Assembly (NCBI GenBank): GCA_001940895.1
Contig: MSGY01000004.1
Span: 1 to 35,107, forward strand
Direction: 5' to 3'
DNA: 35,107 nt
Origin: Christensenellaceae bacterium Phil10
GTDB lineage: Bacteria; Bacillota; Clostridia; Christensenellales; CAG-917
Positions 3-26,694 of this stretch are shown here, in pieces. The stretch's first letter is position 1, and every line of letters begins with the position of its first letter. Under the pieces are notes generated by a model. It did not search any database. It was not told the DNA's origin and saw only the letters and a list, made by a program, of their open reading frames with translations. A program made the position numbers and the translations under genes.

Positions 3-380
3 ATTCTCATACAATGCAAGCATTTCACAATCACAATAGGCAAAGACATATTGCGAAATCTTGGATTCCCCACTCACATCTGCTTTCGTGTCAACTCGGC
101 AAGCAACTCATTTATCATACTCCCTTGTAAAGCAGAAGACGCAATGTCTTTCAAAGTTCCTGATGATATTTATCTTAATCATCATACTATTATGAGAATA
201 CGAAGCAAGGCGTTCCTTTCTCACATAATAGAAACAAACAACTTTGACTCTGAGCTTGTTTACTCTTACGGCGCTCATTTTATCAAAGAGAAAAATACTG
301 TATTGGTAAACCTATTACCTGAGAACTTACGTCGAGTAAGCACATTAGACAGAATGAAAGTTGAAATGCCCGTTGGGTAA
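3..380 (+). CDS. Unknown protein, C-terminal part (5' end outside window)
   Basis: The frame is open from the first bases of the window to a TAA at 378-380, so the true start lies upstream and at least 125 residues are visible. A TTG at 51 is the first start-like codon but has no ribosome binding site and is not needed. I do not recognise the protein; it has no transmembrane segment, no cysteine motif and no repeat, and looks like a soluble mixed alpha/beta domain. Its codons are clearly more AT-rich (many AAA, ATT, CTT) than those of the genes to its right, which favour GAC, GCG and CGC. That, plus its place beside a tRNA gene, would fit recently acquired DNA, but this is inference. A strong terminator follows directly. 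Confidence 0.6.
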   Translation: MLIQCKHFTITIGKDILRNLGFPTHICFRVNSASNSFIILPCKAEDAMSFKVPDDIYLNHHTIMRIRSKAFLSHIIETNNFDSELVYSYGAHFIKEKNTVLVNLLPENLRRVSTLDRMKVEMPVG

Positions 381-11833: not shown

Positions 11834-12703
11834 ATGTCACACGAATACGTTATACTGTCAGACGCTACGTGCAATCTTCCGAAAGAGTTTTACGAGGACG
11901 ATTTTGCGATTATTCCGATGGACGTAATCATCGACGGCAAAGCGTACGACTCGGACAAAATAAACAGAAAGGAATTTTACGACAAAATGCGCGACGGCGC
12001 TATGCCTACGACTTCCCTGATAAACGAAATGACGGCCGAGGAATTTTTTACGCCTTATCTCGAAAAAGGTCAGGACGTTTTTTTCGTATGTTTCTCTTCA
12101 AAACTTTCGGGTTCGTACAAAGAGATTTGCGAAGCGCGCGATAATCTTTCTGCAAGATTTCCCGACAGAAAAATATGCGTTATCGACAGCAAGGCGGCGT
12201 CGGGCGGCGAGGGAATGCTCGTATATTACTGTCTGAAAAAACGCGCCGAAGGTCTGTCTTTCGACGAACTCGTGAAATTTGCGGAGGAATTCCGCGACGT
12301 ATGCCACCACGATTTTACGGTAAACGACCTTATGCATCTTTACCGGGGCGGAAGGCTTACGAAAACGGCCGCAATCGTAGGAACGGCAATCCAGGTAAAA
12401 CCTATGCTGATTGTAGATCAGGAAGGTTATCTCGTTCCTATATCGAAGGTTATGGGTCGAAAAATGGCCATTAAAGCCCTTTTTGATAAAATGTGCGAAA
12501 AATCCGAAGGTATCGATAACTCCGAATTCGTCTATATCGAACACGCCGATTGCGAAGCGGACGCCGTAACGCTTAAACACAGAATCGAGGAAAAATTCGG
12601 ATATAAAAACATATATATCAACGAATTGAGTCCCATAATCGGCACCCACTTGGGTCCCGACAGCATTACTCTTTTCTATATAGGAAAAGACAAAGCAAAA
12701 TAA
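11834..12703 (+). CDS. DegV family fatty-acid-binding protein
   Basis: A 289-residue cytosolic protein of the DegV/FakB family. Members bind a single fatty acid and, as FakB, present it to the kinase FakA for phosphorylation and entry into phospholipid synthesis. The N-terminal SDATCNLP (residues 9-16), the TTSLIN block, the FSSKLSGSY segment and the VNDLMHLYRGGRL stretch (around 158-170), which contacts the lipid headgroup, are all present, as is the C-terminal SPIIGTHLGPDSITLFYIG. No FakA partner lies nearby, so the partner and lipid are unknown. AGAGGT precedes the ATG. The long leader with a terminator-like hairpin suggests regulated expression. Confidence 0.93.
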   Translation: MSHEYVILSDATCNLPKEFYEDDFAIIPMDVIIDGKAYDSDKINRKEFYDKMRDGAMPTTSLINEMTAEEFFTPYLEKGQDVFFVCFSSKLSGSYKEICEARDNLSARFPDRKICVIDSKAASGGEGMLVYYCLKKRAEGLSFDELVKFAEEFRDVCHHDFTVNDLMHLYRGGRLTKTAAIVGTAIQVKPMLIVDQEGYLVPISKVMGRKMAIKALFDKMCEKSEGIDNSEFVYIEHADCEADAVTLKHRIEEKFGYKNIYINELSPIIGTHLGPDSITLFYIGKDKAK

Positions 12704-12722: not shown

Positions 12723-12751
12723 AAAAGCCTTCCCGGTCGGGAAGGCTTTTT
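12723..12751. terminator. Bidirectional terminator between degV and the nuclease-like gene
   Basis: Stem AAAAGCCTTCCC / GGGAAGGCTTTT (12723-12734, 12739-12750) with a GGTC loop and T runs on both sides. It ends both convergent genes. Confidence 0.9.
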
Positions 12752-12760
12752 CGTTTGTCA

Positions 12761-13975
12761 TTATTCCGTTATCTCGTCGTCTTCGTCATCCGTGCGCTCC
12801 GGCGAATCCGTATCTACGTCATATTCGTTAGCGTCGATAATCGCCTTTCCGGCCGCTTCTTTGACAACGTTTTTATATTCTCTGAACACCTTTTCGAATT
12901 CAATCATCGCTTTCGTGAGAAAACCCGAAACGTCCTGCCACGAATTCGTATCCAAAAACGACAGTTCTGCATTTTTTATCGATATTCTCGATTGTTTTCT
13001 GTCGTCAAGTCTTTCCCATCTTATCTTATAGTCGGGCATCTTGCTCTCTATCTCTTCGCGGTAATTATAAAGAGCGTCAAAAATAGCTTTATTGAGCGCT
13101 TTACTTCCCGCGTCTATGCACAGTTCGACGCCGCTGTAAGAGTTGCAGGCAAGAAAAGCGTAATGAACGTTTCCTCTCATACCCGCGCTGACGGCAAGCC
13201 AGTGGTCTTTCTTATTGTAGTATCCTATGCTCTTGTATAACGGGCTCTCGAGATTGAATCCCGGCATGAAATATTCCCAGAATCTCGCTCTCAAATCTTC
13301 GGCCTTTTTAATCTTTTCGCTCTGCTGATGTTCGGCTTCTGCTTTTTCCTGCATTTTCATCGTATAGTCTTCGGAACTTCTGCAGGGATATATCGTATCC
13401 AAATCGAGATAAAGGGCGTCGCCGTCCTTATAAGGCGTTATCTGCACGCAGGATATGTCGATTTTGAATTTTCTGAGCCATACTGCGGCCGAAACGACTT
13501 CGTTTCTGAATTTACGGGCAACGAGAATTATCCTTTGCGAATTTTCCGTATTGAAGTCCTTTATTTCGTCGAATTCCTTGTTCAGAAAATCGCCTATGAC
13601 TCTTTTCGCGTCCTCGGTCGAATTGTTGCCTTTGAGGTACGAATCGAGTAATTCCGCCGTTTGTTCCAGCGTCAGCGTCGAAACGTACGATGCGTATTTG
13701 ATGGCCTGCCATACCGCGTCGCGTCCCGAATCGTCGGTCTTATTTTCGATAACGACGAGCTTTCCTTTTTTATCGAGCGCCAGAACGTCAAGCCTTTCGT
13801 TCGTCTTATCCCAACCCGAAAACTCCTTCTGAACAATAAGAAGTTCCTCGCCGAGGATTTTGGGATTGCTTACAAGCCATTCCTGTAAATCCGTTCTCTC
13901 TTTGCAATTCATTTCTTTCAGCGTTACCTCGTTTATTTCTGCAAGTTCTTTGGTTTCGAAATTAACTTTATACAT
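12761..13975 (-). CDS. PD-(D/E)XK nuclease-like protein with DUF4268 C-terminus
   Basis: A 404-residue soluble protein. Residues 25-100 have the layout of a PD-(D/E)XK endonuclease core: D63 in RLDVLALD, E77 and K79 in VVIENKTD, and a Q90-x3-Y94 helix (WQAIKYASY), the pattern seen in NucS-like and restriction-type nucleases. Residues about 245-375 match the DUF4268 domain, common in restriction-associated and other putative nucleases. The last 30 residues are strongly acidic (DTDSPERTDDEDDEITE) and may shield the protein or bind a partner. It is the second gene of a minus-strand unit, 62 bases after the coiled-coil gene, with AAGGAGA before its ATG. The operon is driven by a promoter covered by a palindromic operator. 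A role in DNA defence is possible but not shown. Confidence 0.82.
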   Translation of the reverse strand: MYKVNFETKELAEINEVTLKEMNCKERTDLQEWLVSNPKILGEELLIVQKEFSGWDKTNERLDVLALDKKGKLVVIENKTDDSGRDAVWQAIKYASYVSTLTLEQTAELLDSYLKGNNSTEDAKRVIGDFLNKEFDEIKDFNTENSQRIILVARKFRNEVVSAAVWLRKFKIDISCVQITPYKDGDALYLDLDTIYPCRSSEDYTMKMQEKAEAEHQQSEKIKKAEDLRARFWEYFMPGFNLESPLYKSIGYYNKKDHWLAVSAGMRGNVHYAFLACNSYSGVELCIDAGSKALNKAIFDALYNYREEIESKMPDYKIRWERLDDRKQSRISIKNAELSFLDTNSWQDVSGFLTKAMIEFEKVFREYKNVVKEAAGKAIIDANEYDVDTDSPERTDDEDDEITE

Positions 13976-14037
13976 CGGATGTTCTCCTTAAAATTTCTTT
14001 CATTTTAAACTGATTTGCGTTGTCGTTCAAAAATCCG

Positions 14038-14295
14038 TTACCACCTGTTTCCGCCGTTACGACTGGCCTCGTTGCGAAGTTCCCTTTCGTAATCGTCTGC
14101 TTTTCTTTGATAATCGTTTTCCTGCCTTCTGCAATCGTCAGCTTTTTTCCGATATTCTTTTTCTTGCCTTTCATAGCTGTCCGCGCCTCTATCGATATTG
14201 TCGTATTGTCTCATCTCCCGGTCGATTCTGCGACGATAGTCTTCGATTTCCCTGTCGCACTGTTCGATTTGCTGTTTGTACATTAAACTACTCAA
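14038..14295 (-). CDS. Small, highly charged coiled-coil protein
   Basis: An 85-residue protein made almost wholly of charged and polar residues (Arg, Lys, Glu, Asp, Gln, Tyr). It looks like one long helix with repeating units that resemble R-(R/K)-x-(E/D)-x-(D/E)-Y-x-R-K, for example YRKKADDCRRQENDYQRKAD, so a coiled coil is expected. There is no membrane segment. The TTG at 14295 is chosen as start because GGAG lies about 8 bases upstream; the in-frame ATG at 14283 would sit too far from it. No known family is recognised. Being first in the operon with the DUF4268 protein, and under the twin-operator promoter, it is a natural candidate for a structural partner, adaptor or inhibitor of that protein; this is inference. 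Confidence 0.75.
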   Translation of the reverse strand: MSSLMYKQQIEQCDREIEDYRRRIDREMRQYDNIDRGADSYERQEKEYRKKADDCRRQENDYQRKADDYERELRNEASRNGGNRW

Positions 14296-14310
14296 AAATT
14301 TTCTCCTTCT

Positions 14311-14338
14311 TTGATAGCGTATTGCTATATTTTATAAT
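14311..14338 (+). promoter_or_regulatory. Promoter of the HTH regulator
   Basis: TTGATA (14311-14316), 16-base spacer, TATAAT (14333-14338). The -35 overlaps operator 14313-14329. The second operator lies just after the predicted start, so bound protein would block it. Confidence 0.55.
14313..14329. promoter_or_regulatory. Operator copy 2 (inverted repeat)
   Basis: GATAGC-GTATT-GCTATA, a 6-5-6 inverted repeat with one imperfect outer pair. It shares the arms (T/G)ATAGC...GCTATA with the copy at 14344-14360; the centres are 31 bp apart, close to three helical turns. Confidence 0.7.
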
Positions 14339-14339
14339 A

Positions 14340-14368
14340 ATTATATAGCCGTTGGCTATAATTGTCAA
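14340..14368 (-). promoter_or_regulatory. Promoter of the coiled-coil / DUF4268 operon
   Basis: On the minus strand: consensus TTGACA (14368-14363), 17-base spacer, consensus TATAAT (14345-14340). One of the strongest promoters in the window by sequence; its spacer and the edge of the -10 are filled by the operator at 14344-14360, as expected for a promoter that is normally repressed. Confidence 0.85.
14344..14360. promoter_or_regulatory. Operator copy 1 (perfect inverted repeat)
   Basis: TATAGC-CGTTG-GCTATA, arms perfectly complementary (and extendable by C/G inside). It fills the spacer of the minus-strand promoter. Confidence 0.75.
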
Positions 14369-14377
14369 TGACACCGT

Positions 14378-14584
14378 ATGAGCATTTTTTCTAAAAGACT
14401 TCTTGATTTAAGAAAGCAACACAACCTTACGCAACGCGACGTTGCGGATTATCTCGGCATAGCGCAACCGTCGTATCTGCGCTACGAAAACGGCAAGGCG
14501 GAACCCACTCTCGAAAACCTTGCGAAACTTGCCGACCTTTTTGACGTATCCGCCGATTATTTTCTCGGCCGCTCCGAATACTGA
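14378..14584 (+). CDS. Small XRE-family HTH transcriptional regulator
   Basis: A 68-residue protein that is a single Cro/CI-type helix-turn-helix domain. The HTH spans about residues 18-42: TQRDVADYLGIAQPSYLRYENGKAEP, followed by the usual PTLENLAKLADLFDVSADYFLGR tail, which makes up the rest of the five-helix fold. It has no sensor or protease domain. It is divergent from the coiled-coil/DUF4268 operon, and the shared 82-base region holds two matching inverted repeats, so it very likely binds them and represses both itself and the operon. No Shine-Dalgarno sequence is visible before the ATG and an in-frame stop lies three codons upstream, so the start is fixed and translation is probably weak. 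Confidence 0.92.
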   Translation: MSIFSKRLLDLRKQHNLTQRDVADYLGIAQPSYLRYENGKAEPTLENLAKLADLFDVSADYFLGRSEY

Positions 14585-14632
14585 TTATAATTTAACCCTT
14601 TCGATGCACCGTTTAAAGGACATAAACAAAAA

Positions 14633-14665
14633 CGGACCGATTTTTTTTCGGTCCGCTTTCTTTTT
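14633..14665. terminator. Bidirectional terminator between the HTH and sirtuin genes
   Basis: Stem CGGACCGA (14633-14640) / TCGGTCCG (14648-14655) with a T7 loop and T-rich tails in both directions. Confidence 0.85.
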
Positions 14666-14670
14666 TTCTT

Positions 14671-15381
14671 TTACAGATTTTTGAATTCGGTAAGCAGATT
14701 TTCGTGCGAAAGATAAGTCGCGCGACGGTCGTAAGGAGTTTTAGAGGCGTTTATTATGCAAAGATTTTTCCCCGAAAACGAATCCACGAGACCCGCCGCT
14801 GGATAAACGTTAAGACTGCTGCCTCCGACTATCAGAGTATCGGCCTTTTCAATCTCTTCAAACGCTTTGCCCCACGTCTCGCCGTCGAGAGGCTCCTCGT
14901 ACAAAACGACGTCGGGCTTTATCACGCCGCCGCAATCGCATACGGGCACGCCCTTGCCGGACAGAACGTAATCGAGGTCGAAAAACCTGCCGCATCTCGT
15001 ACAATAATTTCTGAATACGCTGCCGTGCAGTTCCAGTACGTTTTTACTGCCGGCCTTCTGATGAAGTCCGTCGATATTCTGGGTAAGCACAGCTTTGATT
15101 TTTCCTTCTTTTTCGAGCCTTGCAAGCGCCGTATGCACCTCGTTCGGCCGGGCGTCGGGATAAACCATATATTTTTTGTAATAGTCGTAAAAATCTTTCG
15201 TGCGACGCACGAAGAACGAGTGAGATATTATCCTTTCGGGAGGAAGCCCCCATTCGTTTTCGGTATTGTAAATTCCGTTCGCACCGCGAAAGTCGGGAAT
15301 GTTGCTTGCCGTCGATACGCCCGCGCCGCCGAAAAACACCGCGTACCTGCTGTTATCAATTATTTCTTTTAACGTGCTCAT
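14671..15381 (-). CDS. Sir2 family NAD-dependent protein deacylase
   Basis: A 236-residue sirtuin that removes acyl groups from lysines using NAD+. All catalytic elements are present: GAGVSTASNIPDFRG (residues 19-33) for NAD binding, TQNIDGLH (100-107), the catalytic His119 in ELHGS, and a four-cysteine zinc site (C127, C130, C148, C150, the last pair spaced C-x-C rather than the common C-x2-C). The C-terminal GGSSLNVYPAA and NAS motifs complete the Rossmann fold. The start is fixed: an in-frame TAA lies three codons before the ATG at 15381. The promoter at 15388-15416 puts the transcript start on or next to this ATG and there is no ribosome binding site, so the mRNA appears leaderless. Confidence 0.93.
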   Translation of the reverse strand: MSTLKEIIDNSRYAVFFGGAGVSTASNIPDFRGANGIYNTENEWGLPPERIISHSFFVRRTKDFYDYYKKYMVYPDARPNEVHTALARLEKEGKIKAVLTQNIDGLHQKAGSKNVLELHGSVFRNYCTRCGRFFDLDYVLSGKGVPVCDCGGVIKPDVVLYEEPLDGETWGKAFEEIEKADTLIVGGSSLNVYPAAGLVDSFSGKNLCIINASKTPYDRRATYLSHENLLTEFKNL

Positions 15382-15561: not shown

Positions 15562-15635
15562 TGGAGCATGGTGTAGTGGCAGCACATAGGCCTCTGACTC
15601 CTATGGTGTAGGTTCGATTCCTACTGCTCCTGCCA
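15562..15635 (+). tRNA. tRNA-Gln (CTG)
   Basis: A 74-base tRNA with acceptor TGGAGCA (15562-15568) and TGCTCCT, discriminator G, encoded CCA 15633-15635. The anticodon loop CTCTGAC gives CTG (Gln). T-arm GTAGGTTCGATTCCTAC is perfect. Two oddities: position 1-72 is T-T rather than the usual U-A of tRNA-Gln, and the last anticodon-stem pair (31-39) is C-T. The rest of the fold is sound and a promoter and terminator flank it. Confidence 0.88.
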
Positions 15636-25401: not shown

Positions 25402-25556
25402 TAGTTATTATGAAATTTTTTTATTCTTTTTTTCAACTTGTAATATATGGTTTTCGCGCCTCCGTATCAGTTTCGAAAAACCGATTATTTTTTTCTAAAC
25501 GCACGTCGGACGGGCGGATTGTGTTGCGGTTTTTTTACAAATGTGTTAATATTACA
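25402..25556. other. Non-coding stretch between hsp20 and the second DUF2804 gene
   Basis: T-rich, with no credible gene. The only structure is GGTTTTCG (25449-25456) facing CGAAAAACC (25474-25482) with a T run after it, a terminator-like hairpin with no identified plus-strand gene in front of it. Confidence 0.3.
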
Positions 25557-25585
25557 TTGTATTTATTTAAGTACGGATATTATAT
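25557..25585 (+). promoter_or_regulatory. Probable promoter of the second DUF2804 gene
   Basis: TTGTAT (25557-25562), 17-base spacer, TTATAT (25580-25585), about 27 bases before the ATG. Confidence 0.5.
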
Positions 25586-25611
25586 GGTATTATTATGAGA
25601 AGGAGAATATT

Positions 25612-26694
25612 ATGAGCAACGACCCCAAAATCAGCGAAAAACGCTATCCCGCAAAAACGCCCCGCTCGATTGTCGAGAACGGGGAAGCCCATTTCGGCAC
25701 TTTCGACGCGCCTTTTGAAAATCTTAATCTGCTCGACTGCAAAAAACCCTGTTTTATCGGCCTGCCCGCGTTTATGAAGCGCGCGCGTCTTACCGAATGG
25801 GAAGCTTTCGAGGTAAATATGGACGAAGGCTCTCTTATAAGCGCGGTATATAACGTAGGTCCCATAGGTTTTTCCATATTCGTCTGGTACGAAAAGGCCG
25901 AAAAGAAAATTTATGCCTGGAGAAATCTCGTCCCCGTAAAACGCGCGCACGTTGCAAAACAGCTTATCAGCGACAACTGCTACTGCAAAACCAAAAAAAG
26001 CGAGTATTCCATCGTCAACGATTTTCTTAACGGAAAAGCGCAATGCAAAGGCTATACGAAAGGAAAATCGGGCGAATTCGGAATCGATATTTCTTTCGAG
26101 CGTCTTTCTCCTCTCGCAAACGGCGTAATGCCCCTCAAGAAAAACAAGGACGGCACCTTCCGCAATCCTCTTTACAGCGAAAAAGACTTTTTCAAGGCAA
26201 CGGGAACGATTACCGTTAACGGCAAAACATATAAGACGAACGAAAGGTCGGTAGGCATTATCGACGACCACAAGGGTTTTTATCCCTGGTACGCGCATTA
26301 CGACTGGCTGACCACGATGGGAAAAACGGTTATCGACGGCGAAGAAAAATTCTTTGCGTTCAACCTTACGAGAAACCAGTCCGCAGACCAATACAATTAT
26401 AACGAAAATGTAATATGGCTCGAAGGCAAATCCTTCCCCATGCCTCCCGTCGTTTTCACCCATAAGGACGGAAAGAAAAAAACGGACGAATGGTACGTTC
26501 GCGACGAAGAAGGCAAGGGAATCGTGGATATAACTTTCAAAATCGAAAAGGTTTTCTATATGCCCATTCCCGGAATAGTTTATTACGCCCTCCCTTACGG
26601 CAAAATTTACGGCTACGTTACAGACCCCGACGGCAAAAAATACGTCGTGGACGGAATGGTAGGCATCGGCGAAGACAAAACTACCAGAGTATAA
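25612..26694 (+). CDS. DUF2804-like protein, divergent paralogue
   Basis: A 360-residue soluble protein related to DUF2804. Like the gene at 10547-11578 it runs from an N-terminal NLLDCKKP...LTEWEAFEV region through a beta-rich body to a central aromatic block (IIDDHKGFYPWYAHYDWLTTMG, about residues 216-237) that corresponds to the DWGRGVW region of its paralogue, then ends with YVVDGMVGIGEDK, parallel to EVKDMIGFAEK in the other. Direct identity is low, so they are old duplicates or separately acquired. No signal peptide is present. The start ATG at 25612 is preceded by AAGGAGAA; earlier in-frame starts lack such a site. Function is unknown; a lipocalin-like ligand-binding barrel is a guess. 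Confidence 0.75.
   Translation: MSNDPKISEKRYPAKTPRSIVENGEAHFGTFDAPFENLNLLDCKKPCFIGLPAFMKRARLTEWEAFEVNMDEGSLISAVYNVGPIGFSIFVWYEKAEKKIYAWRNLVPVKRAHVAKQLISDNCYCKTKKSEYSIVNDFLNGKAQCKGYTKGKSGEFGIDISFERLSPLANGVMPLKKNKDGTFRNPLYSEKDFFKATGTITVNGKTYKTNERSVGIIDDHKGFYPWYAHYDWLTTMGKTVIDGEEKFFAFNLTRNQSADQYNYNENVIWLEGKSFPMPPVVFTHKDGKKKTDEWYVRDEEGKGIVDITFKIEKVFYMPIPGIVYYALPYGKIYGYVTDPDGKKYVVDGMVGIGEDKTTRV

Follow-up and report, generated by a model that had tools for sequence, protein, structure and literature searches.

The cassette studied here raises the question of whether a small coiled-coil protein, a nuclease-like protein and a divergently encoded repressor form a conserved three-part system, or whether the nuclease belongs to a known family and has only a regulator of its own. 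The original prediction had suggested that they may form a compact self-regulated unit, matching no described system that it recognised, with the coiled-coil protein activating, tethering or restraining the nuclease. The 35-kb stretch analysed (35,107 nucleotides, hereafter the window) lies on contig 4 of an assembly of 1.0 Mb that is 55% complete. All three predicted open reading frames were found, with the coiled-coil gene first and the 404-aa gene second on the reverse strand, and the XRE gene divergent from them (Table 1). The reading that we favour, as rather probable, is a horizontally acquired, self-regulated defence cassette in which a single-gene nuclease of the S11 family is placed under a private repressor.

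Table 1 Features of the cassette and its surroundings (window positions) and regions of the nuclease (residues)
Feature	Position	Strand	Basis or remark
Putative DUF2804-type ORF, 343 aa	10547-11578	-	Divergent from degV
degV, left neighbour	11834-12703	+	Pfam
Terminator-like hairpin	12723-12750		12 bp stem, gap between degV and nuclease gene
PDC-S11 nuclease gene, 404 aa	12761-13975	-	ORF, Pfam, PADLOC
Coiled-coil gene, 85 aa from TTG	14038-14295	-	ORF; ATG at 14283 would give 81 aa
XRE gene promoter-like site, TTGATA-16-TATAAT	14311-14338	+	11/12 matches
Putative operator O2, GATAGCGTATTGCTATA	14313-14329		Over -35 and spacer of XRE promoter
Operon promoter-like site, TTGACA-17-TATAAT	14340-14368	-	12/12 sigma-70 matches
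Putative operator O1, perfect palindrome TATAGCCGTTGGCTATA	14344-14360		In operon promoter spacer, touches -10
XRE/Cro-C1 family repressor gene, 68 aa	14378-14584	+	ORF, Pfam HTH_3
Terminator-like hairpin	14628-14660		Gap between XRE and Sir2 genes
Sir2 gene, right neighbour	14671-15381	-	Pfam
tRNA-Gln (CTG)	15562-15635	+	About 1 kb from cassette
DUF2804-type protein	25447-26691	+	Pfam match
NucS-like PD-(D/E)XK domain	Residues ~25-195		D63, E77, K79, Q90, Y94
Linker helix	Residues 199-243
Acidic tail	Residues 385-404		Low confidence in model

The 404-aa protein has a full-length family match to the PADLOC model PDC-S11 (PDLC04913, E 1.4e-121, residues 1-373), which describes a single-gene phage defence candidate with DUF4268. 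Pfam placed DUF4268 (PF14088) at residues 228-368 (E 2.5e-23, 83.1 bits against a gathering score of 27) and NucS_C at residues 28-99 (E 1.3e-5), the two domains being matched in 41 and 27 of 42 aligned S11 homologues, respectively. Across these homologues, which come from several phyla and share 27-45% identity with the query, the PD-(D/E)XK layout read from the sequence (D63, E77-x-K79, Q90-x3-Y94) is invariant, as are E26, R27, R61, D81 and G84, so that D, ExK and QxxxY are conserved in the order of the NucS/RecB-type motif. The start methionine is kept in all aligned homologues, and a Shine-Dalgarno AAGGAG lies 8 nt upstream. When the domain alone was aligned with Pyrococcus abyssi NucS by HMMER, the match was weak (E 0.41); it places D63 on D160 and E77-x-K79 on E174-x-K176, and the same constant offset of 97 also puts Q90 on Q187 and Y94 on Y191. 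These are the NucS site residues listed in a review (D160, E174, K176, Q187 and Y191; PMC7343888). Thus, the nuclease layout and the DUF4268 domain named in the original prediction were both borne out, and its acidic tail is real, although present in few homologues. Searches of PDB sequences gave no match with either the full-length nuclease or the profile. We assign the protein with high confidence to the NucS-type PD-(D/E)XK nucleases, and it would be expected to act as a metal-dependent enzyme.

The AlphaFold model of the nuclease (pLDDT 89), built on a 35-row alignment from which plasmid-derived rows were excluded, agrees with this assignment. The top structural match, clearly above the others, is EndoMS (5gke, Z 13.4, 2.4 A over 113 residues), with the D/E/K/Q/Y active site in register, followed by NucS (2vld, Z 13.0). 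Other PD-(D/E)XK nucleases come next, among them Shedu SduA at Z 7.6 and Hachiman HamA at Z 7.2. DUF4268 aligns in the model with class I type III secretion chaperones and YbjN, where the best match reaches Z 8.3 at 4.2 A; these Z values are borderline, while many entries of this fold recur among the matches. A DUF4268 fold near that of the chaperones and YbjN is, as modelled, a lead only.

The distribution of the family is that of an accessory gene. PDC-S11 is spread over Bacillota, Bacteroidota, Proteobacteria and plasmids; a profile found S11 in 25 of 398 genomes of the phylum, a sequence search in 5 of 396 genomes of the order, this one included, and the remaining genomes sampled from the same family all lacked it. 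In a scan of genome contigs the single-sequence query returned 0 matches, and the alignment query 445 relatives. Moreover, S11 occurs on 361 plasmid records, and one subtype was found in 57 of 5,426 E. coli genomes. The closest plasmid homologues, in E. coli, Vibrio, Paracoccus and Raoultella, are located between hsdS and hsdR of type I restriction-modification (R-M) operons, in the order hsdM-hsdS-S11-hsdR, an order also seen in viral contigs, and in a Cereibacter plasmid locus S11 stands alone. Among 90 genomic or viral S11 loci, hsd genes are at most five genes away in at least 19 and hsdR at most two in at least 13, both counts being lower bounds, since the labels come from BLAST against few reference proteins. 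Restriction-helicase and REase_I models are the commonest families among the operon neighbours. The expected recurrence of this PD-(D/E)XK and DUF4268 family with restriction systems is therefore seen, with S11 beside or inside type I R-M operons.

This arrangement also lends itself to the alternative that S11 is no independent nuclease but modulates type I R-M enzymes or serves them as an accessory subunit, the copy in the window being an orphan. We consider this unlikely: no hsd gene was recognised near 71 of the 90 loci (about 79%, a figure in which divergent hsd genes may be missed), no Hsd, Mod or Res match was obtained in the 35-kb window, and invariant catalytic residues are expected only if S11 cuts. 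Two findings count against the defence cassette that we favour, in which S11 would serve as an auxiliary restriction enzyme, on its own or next to R-M systems: the scanned proteins of the window included no further recognisable defence gene, and most homologue loci have no hsd gene nearby. Linked systems may be absent from view given the 55% completeness of the assembly.

The private repressor is suggested by the 82-bp gap that separates the XRE gene from the operon. The XRE protein carries HTH_3 (Pfam, E 3e-19), and within the gap two palindromes of the pattern ATAGCN5GCTAT, with centres 31 bp apart, about three helical turns, overlie the two opposed promoter-like sites, that is, the XRE gene's own promoter and the divergent one. 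When the gap was shuffled 200,000 times at the mononucleotide level, at least one such palindrome appeared in only 12 of the shuffles, and the real gap has two. The pattern occurs three times in the genome, the third copy lying inside an aminotransferase-like ORF and taken as chance. A repressor dimer bound to two operators, closing opposed promoters, is a standard autoregulated layout. As far as the sequence goes, an XRE dimer on the putative O1 and O2 would shut both promoters, and the self-regulation that had been predicted gains support from the two palindromes and the consensus promoter.

The same switch could have been left by a prophage or satellite, with the XRE protein as a phage-type repressor and the operon as its early genes, as the opposed promoters with two palindromes and the resemblance to RstR and phage repressors would allow (NCBIfam phage_RstR, 76.0 bits, just under the cut-off of 80). 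We regard such a remnant as distinctly unlikely, given that the scan of window proteins recognised neither an integrase nor any further phage gene, that terminator-like hairpins isolate just three genes, and that S11 is almost absent from phages (one match among 50,697 phage records).

Regarding the coiled-coil gene, it is a probable and not a certain gene: its frame is the best of six for codon usage, yet scores 0.17 bits per codon against 0.44-0.46 for other genes, a weaker score on which this caution is based. The TTG start has a good Shine-Dalgarno sequence 7 nt upstream, and the product, described beforehand as almost wholly charged, which was overstated, contains 51% D/E/K/R with a hydrophobic period of 3.5 residues. 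The model (pLDDT 76) predicts a helical hairpin (H3-27/H31-76, in the 81-aa numbering). No homologues were found in relatives, 388 genomes of the phylum, plasmids, phages or viral contigs, the search giving nothing beyond marginal matches (E about 1e-3) that lie within long open frames. Adjacency of the coiled-coil and nuclease genes had been named beforehand as a test of the partnership, and it fails, as none of about 100 S11 homologue loci has a comparable small neighbour. By these searches the gene is lineage-specific, confined to this genome and not a conserved partner; an activating, tethering or restraining role is not supported, confidence in any role of the protein is low, and the evidence so far does not make it a partner of the nuclease. 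The conserved trio of XRE, coiled-coil and S11 genes is, for the same two reasons, rejected. As for the trio being undescribed, its nuclease was already in PADLOC as PDC-S11. One locus (L143) looked like a second trio, with an XRE gene upstream of S11; the intervening gene, to judge from its sequence, encodes a GIY-YIG/T5orf172-looking protein, and the XRE gene there faces another operon.

A distinctly improbable reading is that of an inducible S11 defence variant whose coiled-coil protein evolves fast as a partner of DUF4268; the borderline similarity to the chaperone/YbjN fold would make DUF4268 a dimerising or peptide-binding sensor triggering the NucS-like nuclease. A toxin-antitoxin module, with the nuclease as toxin and either the coiled-coil or the XRE protein as antitoxin, we judge very unlikely. 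The layout, with a small gene preceding a nuclease that could be toxic, an autorepressor and a pair of palindromes, does resemble toxin-antitoxin autoregulation; however, a conserved adjacent partner is missing from the homologous loci, the coiled-coil gene has no homologues found, and in many genomes and plasmids S11 stands alone or in R-M operons without a small partner. Very improbable as well is a NucS-like repair nuclease for branched or mismatched DNA, since, although NucS/EndoMS is the best fold and motif match, the N-terminal DNA-binding domain of NucS is missing, the NucS equivalog model gives 35.9 bits against a cut-off of 216 with only positions 123-236 of 250 aligned, and S11 is very patchy, plasmid-borne and found beside R-M genes, not universal.

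Returning to the proposed acquired defence cassette, its left flank bears on its origin. The DUF2804-degV pair is kept in several same-family genomes, and matches to S11, XRE or coiled-coil genes are absent from those loci, in line with a lineage-specific gain downstream of degV. In those genomes Sir2 does not adjoin degV, and the empty site is matched on its left flank only. The terminator-like hairpins on both flanks make the cassette look isolated on both sides, and the tRNA-Gln is not an obvious attachment site, as the cassette lies on its 5' side. In base composition the nuclease gene closely resembles degV, which indicates that the gene is well ameliorated or came from a similar donor.

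A simple scheme would be that the XRE protein, on two operators in opposed promoters, represses the nuclease operon and itself, and that a very strong promoter would be freed once the repressor is lost, for instance on entry into a naive cell or in response to an infection signal. The effector would be a NucS-type metal-dependent nuclease fused to DUF4268, where DUF4268 probably recognises foreign DNA or licenses the attack on it and the N-terminal domain cuts or nicks; the coiled-coil protein, encoded by the first gene of the operon, would be lineage-specific and have no conserved role. We hold a DNA-targeting defence role of the nuclease with moderate confidence. In the literature searched no experimentally tested S11 member was found, and PDC-S11 is a candidate label; among 10 P. 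aeruginosa strains it correlates with resistance to phages, which is weak evidence (PMC10855318).

Compared with known systems, the protein shares with typical PDC-S11 members the same two domains, the invariant residues and the full-length match, and differs in its XRE-regulated operon, orphan coiled-coil gene, acidic tail and lack of an R-M operon. With NucS/EndoMS it has the PD-(D/E)XK core in common, whereas a C-terminal DUF4268 and an accessory distribution set it apart. Shedu (SduA) is likewise a single-gene PD-(D/E)XK defence nuclease, but with another accessory domain; the resemblance in fold is limited to the nuclease domain, and no Pfam (SduA/DUF4263) or PADLOC Shedu match was obtained here at E up to 1. 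DUF4268 has been reported as an extra domain in some type IV GmrSD proteins (PMC4619093), while neither DUF262 nor DUF1524, as in GmrSD restriction enzymes, is present here. Foreign defence genes inside type I R-M operons are exemplified by TgvAB (PMC11411939), which parallels the S11 homologues located there, and by DarTG2 (PMC12255303). In the type I R-M/DarTG2 island, RptR is a small autorepressor with several operators over the defence operon promoter (PMC12255303); its targets are serial 6-bp repeats and its control extends to the whole island, whereas the cassette here has longer palindromes, a single nuclease and a regulator of the XRE family. The nuclease is thus an additional member of an already catalogued candidate defence family, with a private switch. 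For PDC-S11, the analysis supplies a likely active site, a NucS-type fold assignment and a fold lead for DUF4268, together with a case of an S11 gene cleanly regulated outside an R-M operon, and it makes directly testable whether S11 acts as a restriction nuclease by itself or as an accessory of R-M systems.

Several minor observations were made on the family. In several Bacillota a DUF6884 gene lies directly downstream of S11 (L038 8411-11004, L043 8611-10961, L081 7962-10527), a possible recurrent pair. Shortened homologues (L043 8611-9525, L050 11719-12156) lack the part that joins the nuclease domain to DUF4268 and may represent either genuine compact variants or genes in decay. Also, the S11 gene of L143 (8001-9119) is broken by an in-frame stop and that of L197 (2915-4026) is split over two frames, which suggests decay in some lineages or sequencing errors. 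In one genome (G461) the same S11 neighbourhood is found on two contigs in opposite orientation, with one end rRNA-like (L195 and L196), likely a duplication or an assembly effect. Finally, in the structural search Gp54 of Bacillus phage G aligned with the S11 model over 359 columns, the greater part of its length (E 5.4e-10), and this phage may carry an S11-like protein.
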